The notes below the pieces were generated by a model. It searched no databases. It was not told where the DNA came from and worked only from the letters and a program-made list of their open reading frames with translations. Position numbers and translations under genes: made by a program. Source: Dipodascopsis uninucleata var. uninucleata (Eukaryota; Ascomycota; Lipomycetes; Lipomycetales; Lipomycetaceae). Taken from it: 64,000 nt of DNA. Within the stretch, counting starts at the first letter, position 1. The number at the start of each line of letters is the position of its first letter. Shown here one piece after another: positions 51,878 to 56,624 of this stretch. Where the stretch lies: contig JAJLTO010000005.1 in NCBI GenBank assembly GCA_030568195.1, positions 1,178,001 to 1,242,000 of the forward strand, in the 5' to 3' direction.

Positions 51878-52624
51878 ATGGCTACCAATATTACGTGGCA
51901 TGCTGGTTTGACTCACGAGGAGCGCTCTAAGCTGAGAGGACAGAAGGGTCTCACCATTTGGCTGACTGGTCTTTCTGCGTCTGGCAAGAGGTGAGTAAAA
52001 CGATTATAAATCTTACTCGGGCAATCATTTGTATCGACTCTTACGGCTTACTGACTGTTATTGATACAGTACTATTGCGACCGCTCTCGAGCAACATCTT
52101 TTACACAATGGTCTATCGTCTTACAGATTGGATGGTTAGTTCTTACATTGGTTTTGACTATATTACATTTGAAGCTAACACGAGCAAAATACTTAGGTGA
52201 CAATGTTCGCTTCGGTTTGAACAAAGATCTCGGATTTTCAGAGAAAGACCGTAACGAAAATATCCGAAGAATTGCTGAGGTTGCTAAGTTGTTTGCTGAT
52301 TCTACTTCCATTGCTATTACTTCGTTTATCTCTCCATATAGAGCTGATAGAGATCAAGCCCGTGAGCTGCACAATAAGGACTCCATTCCGTTTATAGAGG
52401 TCTACATTGACGTCCCAATTGAAGTTGCAGAGCAGCGCGACCCTAAGGGACTTTACAAGAAGGCACGTGCTGGAATAATTCCTGAGTTTACAGGTATATC
52501 CGCACCGTACGAAGAACCAAAGGCTGCCGAGATTCACATTCACTCTGACAAGGTCTCTGTTGAAGAGGCAGTACAGATTATTGTTGACTATCTTGTTTCC
52601 AACGACTATATCAAGGCTTTATAA
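51878..52624 (+). CDS. MET14: Adenylylsulfate kinase (APS kinase)
   Basis: Phosphorylates adenosine 5'-phosphosulfate to PAPS with ATP, the second step of sulfate assimilation. Three exons: 51878-51990, 52070-52134 and 52197-52624, 201 aa (yeast Met14 has 202). Both introns are short (79 and 62 bp), and the second carries a GCTAAC branch site. The first splice lies inside the P-loop: GLSASGK then [11 protein letters not shown], so Gly31-Ser38 form GLSASGKS. The second joins RLDG to [14 protein letters not shown]. The substrate region [15 protein letters not shown] and the mobile lid around [12 protein letters not shown] are intact, and [19 protein letters not shown] follows. MET16 is next downstream on the same strand and MET3 beyond it. 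Confidence 0.96.
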
Positions 52625-52946
52625 GTGACAAAACCATATGAATTGATGATGACTTCTATATTTGAATTGGCTTAGACGAGCGGTTGGTGATGTGACGGTG
52701 CTGTTCATAGAACAAGAGCCGTATAGATGAGGACTAGGCGAATGGCATCGAAAAAATGAAATGGCGTGTAATGATGAAATATTCATAACTCCATAATTCA
52801 ATTATGTTCGTATTTGCAATAATGTGATATTGCTGACTGTAATAATCCTCTGACATGTTTGCTCAGCCAAAGCAGGAAGATCAGGACTCTTGGTCAAGCA
52901 AGGGCTGGTCTACCTGTCAGCGAGTAGCGAGCCATCATTACTATTC

Positions 52947-52958
52947 AAAATGCATTTT
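52947..52958. promoter_or_regulatory. AAAATGCATTTT palindrome, copy 2 (MET14-MET16 gap)
   Basis: Here the palindrome extends to 14 bp, CAAAATGCATTTTG (52946-52959). It is about 660 bp upstream of the MET16 ATG and 320 bp past the MET14 stop. Confidence 0.5.
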
Positions 52959-53515
52959 GCACAAATAATTTGCTTCTAATCTTCACAAGCCACAATGACT
53001 AGGTCCGCTACAGTACTCATCTGAGCCGCACTCCATCACGCAATTCAGGGTGCAGCTGTCTTAATATATATCTAACCTGAATGGACTAACATATTACCAT
53101 ATATGTGATAGTGCTGTCTTAACTTGGTGATTTTTTTGATGACGCGATTTTCGTTCAAAAGGCGACAAACATTTTTTTCTTCGTACTTCCGACCAGTGAA
53201 CTTGTGAAGAAGCACTACGACTTGCTTTTTCTTTTTTTGCTTACTATACATCAATGATAGCTTGTAAGCATTATCTAGATAGAAAAAGATTAGATAGGAA
53301 AACAGTACACTATTTTCTCTGTATTGAGCTTTTTCTCGCATAATCATCTTTCCTACGCTTTTTTCTTAAGATTTGTGAGCGTTACAATATTAGTTGCTAG
53401 ACGCAAGTGAAGTCATACTTCGAAATACTAGTCATATATATAAACAGTGACAATTAATAAGCAACTCTTGTTGTTGTCATTGCTTAAATATTTTTTTCTC
53501 TCAAAAGAAAATCTT

Positions 53516-53522
53516 TATATAA
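53516..53522 (+). promoter_or_regulatory. TATA box of MET16
   Basis: TATATAA lies 98 bp before the MET16 ATG, at a normal distance for a regulated yeast-like promoter. Confidence 0.5.
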
Positions 53523-53620
53523 CTGCATCTATTTAACATACGGGCCAGTTTACTGAGCGAACCAACCATTATTTAGTAGCTATTATCACTTGTGCTTACA
53601 CGCGTTGATTTAGAGTCACG

Positions 53621-54484
53621 ATGTCACCAGTAGCAGTTGAACAGGCAAAAGAGCAGAACGGAAAAGTTCTCGAGCACAAGATTACCTTGACTGAGTCGCA
53701 CCTTAAATTCATCAACTCGCAACTTCAGAATCTTGAGCCTCAGCAGATCATACAATGGGCTATCCTCACTTTCCCTAGCCTTTACCAGTCCACTGCTTTT
53801 GGTCTCACGGGCTTGGTTACTATTGACATGATCTCTAAGTTAAGGCCTGAGTATGCTACCAACCATCCAATTGAGCTCATCTTTGTTGACACTTTGCACC
53901 ACTTTCAGGAAACCCTTGACTTGGTTAAGGCGCTGCAAGATAAGTACTCTACCGCGAAACTCCATATTTACAAGCCAGAAAACTGCGAAACTGTTGAGGA
54001 TTTCAACAGATTGTATGGTGAGAGACTGTGGGAGACTGATGAAGCAAAGTATGACTTTCTGGTCAAGGTTGAGCCTATTCAGCGAGCATACAGAGAACTT
54101 GGTGTTAGGGCGACTCTTACTGGTCGAAGAAAGTCTCAGGGCGGTAAGCGAGGCGATTTGGACATCGTTGAAGTTGAAGAATATACTGGTTTGATCAAAA
54201 TCAATCCTTTAGCCAACTGGTCGTTTAGTGATGTTCACAACTACATCAAGGCTAATAATGTGCCATATAACAGCTTATTGGACAAGGGATACCGCTCTGT
54301 TGGTGACTGGCATTCTACCAGTCCGGTTGCTGAGGGCGAAGACGAACGTGCTGGGCGCTGGAAAGGAAAGGCTAAGACTGAATGCGGAATTCACGAGACT
54401 TCAAAGTTCGCTAAGTACTTAGCTGCTAAGAAGGCAGAACAAGAGGCAGCTGCCGCTGCCTCTATTACCGCCGCTGCTCTATAG
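53621..54484 (+). CDS. MET16: PAPS reductase (thioredoxin-dependent)
   Basis: Reduces 3'-phosphoadenylyl sulfate to sulfite and PAP, using thioredoxin. Single exon, 287 aa. Conserved parts: the nucleotide loop region QSTAFGLTGLVTIDMISKL (about 57-75), ELIFVDTLHHFQETL with the LFVDT-type block, a YDFLVKVEPIQRAYRELG segment, TGRRKSQGGKRGDLDIVEVE, LIKINPLANWSFSDVHNYI, and near the end the catalytic cysteine in TECGIHET (about residue 255). The final 30 residues are Ala/Glu/Lys-rich. It is convergent with MET3, 421 bp apart. Length is slightly greater than yeast Met16 (261 aa), mainly at the C-terminal tail. Confidence 0.96.
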   Translation: MSPVAVEQAKEQNGKVLEHKITLTESHLKFINSQLQNLEPQQIIQWAILTFPSLYQSTAFGLTGLVTIDMISKLRPEYATNHPIELIFVDTLHHFQETLDLVKALQDKYSTAKLHIYKPENCETVEDFNRLYGERLWETDEAKYDFLVKVEPIQRAYRELGVRATLTGRRKSQGGKRGDLDIVEVEEYTGLIKINPLANWSFSDVHNYIKANNVPYNSLLDKGYRSVGDWHSTSPVAEGEDERAGRWKGKAKTECGIHETSKFAKYLAAKKAEQEAAAAASITAAAL

Positions 54485-54905
54485 TCATTTTTGGTTGCTA
54501 GTTTGTTCTTCATTTCTTTTGTCACATTCAAAATTTGGTTAGGGATTGCTTTTTGTATTTTATTTAAGGATTCGCGTGGATATTTGTTCAATTCAGCTTA
54601 ACGGCTTCATAGCATATGGATTCATAATGTTTGCATATACTAAAGAAATATATTATGGTATGATAGAGTATTATATATGTGTTCTAGTTTGCGACCATCG
54701 TAGAATATTGTATATAAATAACTTTTTTATTCAGAAAATGCCATCTTTTGACAGTTATTGCCCTTATTTAAAACAGCTTTAATTAACCCGAATCAACACA
54801 AAACCATGTATTCAATAACTAGCCTTGAGCCTATAAGCCCACATATTATTTTAATGATATTAAAACTCTCTAAATAACATTATCTAACATTATTATCTAT
54901 TGTTT
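54485..54905. other. Intergenic between convergent MET16 and MET3
   Basis: 421 bp of AT-rich 3' flanks for both genes. Nothing else is seen. Confidence 0.5.
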
Positions 54906-56624
54906 TTAATTACCAAAGTATCCCTGTGACTCAAGCAACAAAATAATCTGGTGAACAACGGTACGAACAGAAGTCTGGGAAATATCCACAGTCAAATCGG
55001 CATCTGTAGGAACCTCATATGGATCGTCAACACCAGTGAAACCCTTGATCTCACCGTTACGAGCGCGTGCATAAACGCCCTTACGATCGGTCTTCTCGGC
55101 GTACTCCAACGGAGTAGCGACATGGATCAAGAAAAAGTTACCAGACTGCTGGATGATCTCGCGAGCATGCTTACGAGAATCATCGAATGGAGCAATAGGA
55201 GCAGCAATGACAGCCGCACCAGCACGAGTCAGCTCTGAAGCGACAAACGCAATTCTCTGAATGTTCTTATGTCTGTCCTCACGAGAGAACCCAAGCTCAG
55301 AAGATAGCTCACTTCGAACTGTCTCACCCAATAATAGCGAGACCGAACGACCACCCTGCTGATTGAGAGTGACTTGAAGAGCACGAGCAATAGCGTCCTT
55401 ACCAGAGTTATGGTAGCCAGTAAGGAAGATAGTAAATCCCTGGGATACACGTGGTGGGTGAGATTCTCTTAGAACCTTAACAACTTCAGGATAAGAGAAC
55501 CACTCTGGGATTGGAAGGCCAAGTTTAAGACGCTTTCGTAGCTCAGTTCCCGAAATATCGAGAGTTTTGGTACCCGCTGGAACCTCATCTTTAGGAGCAT
55601 ATTCATCAGCATCAGGAAGGTAGGTCATCATCTGGAAAGGAACTACCTCAATTCCAAGTTCATCCTTGTATTTCTCAACCATGAACTGAGCATCATATGG
55701 TCCATAGAATTCTTCACCCTTCGAATTCTTACCTGGACCTGCGTGATCGCGACCAACAATGAAATGAGTAGCACCAAAGTTCTTTCGAATTATTGCGTGC
55801 CACACAGCTTCACGATCACCACCCATACGCATGGCCAGTGGAAGGAGAGAAAGAAGGGCCATTCCATTTGGATATCTTGGGAGAATAGCCTGATAGACGC
55901 GGACTCTGGTGAAATGGTCAATATCACCTGGTTTGGTAAGACCAACAACGGGATGAATCAAGACATTGGCTTGTCGAGATCGAGCGGCACGAACAGTCAG
56001 TTCACGGTGAGCGCGGTGCATTGGATTTCTGGTCTGGAAAGCGACAACGCGGTTCCATCCAAGTTTGTTAAATTCGGCACGTAGCTCAGCTGGGGTGTTT
56101 CGAAGACCGACGTAGTCATAATGATTTGGTCTGTTAATAGCTTGGACCTTACCACCGACGTAATATTCCTTAACAGTGTTGAAGAGATACTTAACAGCTG
56201 GATGCTCTGGATCACCACGGAATACCTTAACAGCCTCAATATCCTTATTTGGCTTATACACATCGTCGACGGTGATGATAGCAAGTGGGCTATCATCACG
56301 GAAATCTCGTAAAACGAAACGTTTGCCAGGAGCAATGCCCACACTCTTGAGCTCCTCCTCACTAACATCGAGATTGATAGGCATGGAGAAGAGGGTACCA
56401 TCAGCAAGTCTAAGATTCTCTACAACTCCATTATAGTCCTTTTCATTCATAAAGCCCTCTAGAGGAGAGAAGCCTCCAGATAAGATGAGTTCAAGATCGC
56501 AAAGCTGGCGCTCTGTCAAGGCAAGGTCTGGAAGAGTGTCGGCCGTGGCCAACAATTCAGCACGAATTGGAGCATCTCTAGCAATCAAGTCCTTAAGGAC
56601 TCCTCCGTGAGGTGTGTTAGCCAT
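54906..56624 (-). CDS. MET3: ATP sulfurylase with C-terminal APS-kinase-like domain
   Basis: Makes adenylylsulfate (APS) from sulfate and ATP, the first step of sulfate assimilation. Single exon, 572 aa, the length of Penicillium-type enzymes and longer than S. cerevisiae Met3 (511). Order: N-terminal domain; catalytic domain with [17 protein letters not shown] (about 194-210; QTRNP and HRAH ATP-binding motifs) and VGRDHAGPG (about 290); then from about residue 395 an APS-kinase-like domain. Its P-loop is altered to GYHNSGKD, as in filamentous fungi where this domain binds PAPS for feedback inhibition and has no kinase activity. The domain is complete ([30 protein letters not shown]), so PAPS feedback is likely. 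MET14 and MET16 are adjacent. Confidence 0.96.

Follow-up and report, generated by a model that had tools for sequence, protein, structure and literature searches.

In the sulfate-assimilation pathway, MET3 makes adenosine 5'-phosphosulfate (APS), MET14 phosphorylates APS to 3'-phosphoadenosine 5'-phosphosulfate (PAPS), and MET16 reduces PAPS to sulfite; in Saccharomyces cerevisiae the three genes lie on different chromosomes. The CYS3/MetR regulon of filamentous fungi has the same kind of targets and a palindromic site for a dimeric factor, ATGRYRYCAT, and the nitrate, DAL, and GAL clusters are fungal primary-metabolism clusters in which contiguous, non-homologous genes of one pathway have their own promoters. 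In budding yeasts, the same enzymes are targets of the Met4-Cbf1-Met31/Met32 regulon, for which PMC13170222 and PMC526180 describe a TGTGGC core near a second element, CACGTG, upstream of the genes. Here we describe a locus in a 64,000-nucleotide stretch of Dipodascopsis uninucleata var. uninucleata (contig JAJLTO010000005.1; hereafter the window) in which MET14, MET16, and MET3 are contiguous and share words in their upstream regions. We consider it likely, with a rough probability of 0.7, that this is a three-gene sulfate activation and reduction cluster, co-regulated via a composite element consisting of a palindrome and TGTGGC, through a putative dimeric factor and a Met31/32-like zinc finger. 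The genes are:

51878..52624, plus strand, MET14, APS kinase, 201 amino acids (spliced model; exons 51878-51990, 52070-52134, and 52197-52624)
53621..54484, plus strand, MET16, PAPS reductase, 287 amino acids (one exon; Pfam PF01507, TIGR02057)
54906..56624, minus strand, MET3, ATP sulfurylase with a C-terminal APS-kinase-like domain, 572 amino acids (one exon; Pfam PUA_2, ATP-sulfurylase, APS_kinase)

The first-pass annotation had placed these genes side by side at 51878-56624 in the order plus, plus, minus, with MET16 and MET3 tail to tail and nothing between the three, and the gene models bear this out: all three genes are intact, their identities are confirmed, and the intervals between them hold no open reading frame (ORF) of at least 100 amino acids. 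MET14 and MET16 are in tandem, separated by 996 bp, and the tail-to-tail gap between MET16 and MET3 is 421 bp; with these orientations, no pair among the three can use a common divergent promoter. Three minus-strand frames of at least 40 amino acids with ATG starts occur in the MET14-MET16 interval (55, 40, and 91 amino acids, the last at 53072-53347) and were judged, by eye only, to be non-coding. The window is free of N and has a G+C content of about 40%.

MET14 has three exons and two GT-AG introns, and passes the NCBIfam model TIGR00455 apsK with 277.6 bits (cut-off 138.7). Its closest solved structure is 1d6j (E 1.7e-85), a Penicillium enzyme. MET16 passes TIGR02057 PAPS_reductase with 293.4 bits (cut-off 254.2) and none of the NCBIfam APS-reductase family models, and its closest solved structures are 7rge and 2oq2. 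It contains only two cysteines, at positions 122 and 255, the latter within ECGIHE, so that the iron-sulfur cysteine pairs found in APS reductases are missing; this and the ECGIH active site mark MET16 as a PAPS reductase rather than an APS reductase.

We compared the regions upstream of MET14 (707 bp), MET16 (996 bp), and MET3 (1785 bp), each of which contains the palindrome AAAATGCATTTT with a TGTGGC and a TGCGGC word beside it:

51735..51746, unstranded, palindrome AAAATGCATTTT, -143 from the MET14 ATG
51758..51763, plus strand, TGTGGC, Met31/32-like core, 23 bp from the palindrome toward MET14
51727..51732, minus strand, TGCGGC word, adjoining the MET14 palindrome on its distal side
52947..52958, unstranded, palindrome AAAATGCATTTT, -674 from the MET16 ATG
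52989..52994, minus strand, TGTGGC, Met31/32-like core, 42 bp from the palindrome toward MET16
53025..53030, minus strand, TGCGGC word, near the MET16 palindrome on its proximal side
57488..57499, unstranded, palindrome AAAATGCATTTT, -875 from the MET3 ATG
57438..57443, plus strand, TGTGGC, Met31/32-like core, 56 bp from the palindrome toward MET3
57421..57426, minus strand, TGCGGC word, near the MET3 palindrome on its proximal side

The exact palindrome occurs three times in the 64 kb, once upstream of each MET gene and nowhere else in the window, and is thus ~70-150 times commoner than expected (0.02-0.04 copies by Markov models of order 1-5; mean 0.03 and maximum 1 in 100 shuffles). With both strands considered, no word shared by the three upstream regions is longer than the 14 bases of AAAATGCATTTTGA. 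None of 500 order-4 Markov simulations yielded a shared word longer than 11 bases. For comparison, all 364 control triples were formed from the window's 14 remaining non-coding stretches with a length of 400 bp or more: the best triple shared a word of 12 bases, AT only apart from one G, and two triples shared words of 11 bases, which are likewise AT-rich. Only three 14-mers have at least three copies in the whole window, namely AAAATGCATTTTGA and two AAG repeats. A one-mismatch copy of the palindrome at 56861 likewise lies upstream of MET3. The earlier proposal that clustering would aid co-regulation gains sequence support in the form of this upstream element, from which we infer factor binding and co-expression.

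Duplication of a promoter can be ruled out as the source of the shared words: blastn of 51171-58409 against the window returned no more than five matches of 20-22 bp, of which four surround the palindromes, and the flanks outside the palindromes are unlike each other. A second 14-base word, ATTTGCAATAATGT, occurs at 51216-51229 (MET14 -662) and 52812-52825 (MET16 -809); it is not listed for MET3.

TGTGGC occurs once per upstream region, each time between the palindrome and the gene. Of 2078 hexamers present no more than 100 bp from the palindromes, it ranks first (P 5.4e-5) and TGCGGC second (P 6.8e-5), and a minimum hexamer P as low was reached in 12 of 3000 random non-coding triples; no 7-mer is common to the regions within 100 bp of the palindromes. 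TGYGGC is not enriched window-wide (27 found vs 29.6 expected), and 6 of its 27 copies are at most 110 bp away from a palindrome. TGTGGC was already known as the core of the sites bound by Met31/Met32, which read CTGTGGC in S. cerevisiae and RBTGTGGYKB in Candida albicans (PMC13170222), and in PMC526180, Cbf1 and Met31/32 sites upstream of hemiascomycete methionine genes are closer together than expected.

As in the budding-yeast regulon, a TGTGGC core lies near a second element upstream of all three genes, but here the second element is AAAATGCATTTT and the genes are contiguous; CACGTG, the Cbf1 site, is absent from the three upstream regions, its two copies being inside the MET14 and MET3 coding regions. 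The locus also departs from the CYS3/MetR regulon, since even ATGNNNNCAT is absent from the three upstream regions and the palindrome has ATG and CAT adjacent. Compared with the nitrate, DAL, and GAL clusters, the pathway is sulfate activation and reduction, and no transporter or regulator gene was seen adjoining. Bacterial cys operons, such as fpr2-cysIXHDNYZ of Corynebacterium glutamicum (named in the title of PMC1266029), likewise have neighboring genes for this pathway, whereas here the proteins are fungal, the genes have separate promoters and lie on both strands, and there is no operon.

Several observations weigh against a co-regulated cluster with a composite element. Relaxed forms are not enriched, either for AAAATGCATTTT with up to 2 mismatches (11 found vs 8.85 expected) or for AAAATGCATTTTGA with up to 3 (24 found vs 17.75 expected), the MET16 and MET3 palindromes are distant from the start codon (-674 and -875), which is long for a yeast promoter, and the element statistics come from one locus only. 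For the neighboring words, the word-corrected P is 0.11 for TGTGGC and 0.14 for TGCGGC, no 5-mer within 100 bp of the palindromes is significant, another TGCGGC lies at 48172, upstream of a major facilitator superfamily (MFS) gene, and the full C. albicans motif RBTGTGGYKB is fitted, by eye, by the MET16 site only. A strict parallel to C. albicans is further weakened because, according to PMC13170222, the Met32 motif is found in three MET promoters only (MET15, MET10, and MET14) and met32 mutants do not require methionine for growth.

The strongest alternative, which we regard as fairly unlikely, is that the genes share a sulfur regulon as in other yeasts and that their adjacency is neutral, reflecting either a gene order that arose by chance or a linkage passed down without selection for clustering. 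Each gene has its own upstream region with its own copy of the element, an arrangement that would be equally workable if the genes were unlinked, as MET3, MET14, MET16, MET5, and MET10 are in C. albicans. These five genes are induced under sulfur deprivation according to PMC13170222. Against neutrality stands the contiguity of three genes for consecutive steps, which is improbable under a random-order model, with P ~1-2e-7 for the three named genes and ~1e-5 for any 3 of 8 pathway genes, where the gene number (5500-6500) and the set of 8 are assumptions; the true surprise is smaller than these values, because the scan covers many pathways and windows. MET16 and MET3 may also be nearly linked in Yarrowia lipolytica (YALI0B08140g and YALI0B08184g), in which case part of the arrangement would be ancient and could already be seen in an annotated genome.

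We think it very improbable that the shared words, instead of being a sulfur-response element, arose by chance or belong to promoters or chromatin in general, with the genes merely neighbors: the lack of enrichment of relaxed palindromes, the distance of two copies from their genes, and the examination of a single locus would fit this explanation, but not the excess of exact copies, their fall of one per MET gene, the dissimilar flanks, or the absence of comparable sharing in all 500 simulations and 364 control triples.

Based on the composite element, a co-regulated cluster could operate as follows. Each gene retains a separate promoter, and a lack of sulfur probably turns on the three genes jointly; shortage would activate a putative dimeric factor bound to AAAATGCATTTT and a Met31/Met32-like zinc finger bound to the nearby TGTGGC at each gene's composite element, with no CACGTG site for Cbf1, and the three enzymes would be raised jointly. 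PAPS from MET14 would then probably feed back on MET3 through a PAPS-sensing C-terminal domain, and MET16 would drain PAPS. Possible reasons for clustering are low PAPS and joint inheritance.

The feedback step involves MET3, which is an ATP sulfurylase of the long fungal type. Its Pfam APS_kinase domain spans residues 395-547, and an ungapped alignment to 1i2d, the allosteric ATP sulfurylase of Penicillium chrysogenum, has 436 of 569 residues identical (77%), distributed as 298/390 in the catalytic part and 138/179 in the remainder. The P-loop of this domain reads GYHNSGKD, as compared to GYMNSGKD in 1i2d and GLSASGKS in MET14, so that MET3 departs from MET14 in the same way as the allosteric enzyme does, and LLLGDTVR of the 1i2d regulatory domain corresponds to LLLGETVR in MET3. 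MET3 thus has the C-terminal APS-kinase-like domain with a changed P-loop that marks the allosteric type. Two results argue against feedback: by itself, the C-terminal domain scores above the cut-off of the apsK model (162.7 vs 138.7 bits), and MET3 scores above that of the bifunctional model NF004040 (784.8 vs 669). As the domain could on these grounds be catalytic, we infer its regulatory role only. LLLGETVR occupies the place of the APS kinase GDN motif, a change that might alter PAPS binding.

Transfer of MET3 from bacteria is ruled out by its 77% identity to 1i2d, as compared to 52-58% among the best 80 prokaryotic relatives kept and less than 60% in all 469 matching plasmid records. A viral collection searched with MET3 and MET16 contained no relative. 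Decoding of CTG as serine is likewise ruled out, since MET3 has CTG codons at positions where it shares a leucine with 1i2d (e.g., in HRELTVRAA); CTG is decoded as leucine. The locus would be in keeping with an early-branching ascomycete yeast.

Taking the locus as a whole, we suggest tentatively, and with more doubt than conviction, that this yeast lineage clustered its sulfate genes and rewired their control, with Cbf1 (CACGTG) as the partner of Met31/Met32 replaced by a new dimeric factor reading AAAATGCATTTT. The trio would then form one PAPS-handling module, comprising a maker, a consumer, and a PAPS-sensing first enzyme, inherited and switched together, with PAPS kept low. Should both the linkage and the element prove to be conserved in relatives, sulfate activation and reduction would count among the primary-metabolism pathways that are clustered in fungi, and the locus would provide a concrete sulfur regulon with a changed partner site in which the Met31/32-like site is retained. 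The palindrome would also offer a direct handle on other sulfur genes and on the factor in this species. Among the open-licence papers listed, none reports, by title and the start of the abstract, a fungal cluster of these genes, which is weak evidence of novelty, and as a word AAAATGCATTTT appears there in unrelated plant work only. Neither sulf- nor methionine occurs in PMC4256263.

The first-pass annotation had also suggested that two genes preceding MET14 might belong to the cluster:

48467-50332, MFS gene, four exons, 555 amino acids
50634-51170, plus strand, ORF of 178 amino acids with a hydrophobic N-terminal stretch, no family match

This suggestion is not supported, and we exclude both genes because neither has an exact palindrome upstream or a link to sulfur. 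The MFS protein resembles DHA2/EmrB-type efflux transporters, with none above cut-off among the best 25 of 62 matches. The 178-amino-acid ORF matches no Pfam or NCBIfam family and no Protein Data Bank (PDB) sequence better than E 0.8, and its single-sequence structure model has a mean predicted local distance difference test (pLDDT) score of 38.2. A two-mismatch copy of the palindrome occurs at 50085, within the MFS coding region, ~540 bp before this ORF. Of 17 other ORFs of the window compared to Pfam, 12 matched families, none of them a sulfur gene, and the five at 50634, 58413, 46296, 41072, and 12372 had no match. As seen here, the cluster consists of three genes.

On the other side, MET3 is adjoined by a 390-amino-acid ORF (58410-59582, minus strand) without a Pfam match, whose SxDxGxxW words resemble, by eye, sialidase-type proteins. 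The only strict ATGRYRYCAT match in the window, at 62301, lies within a gene of the sugar-transporter family (61130-62776, plus strand). Farther away, a region of ~4.2 kb (30763-34938) is without a stop-to-stop ORF of at least 110 amino acids and holds a gene for tRNA-Pro(AGG) at 33062-33152 (plus strand), with a 19-base intron, which was missed in a bacterial-mode scan and found by Rfam and by ARAGORN with introns.

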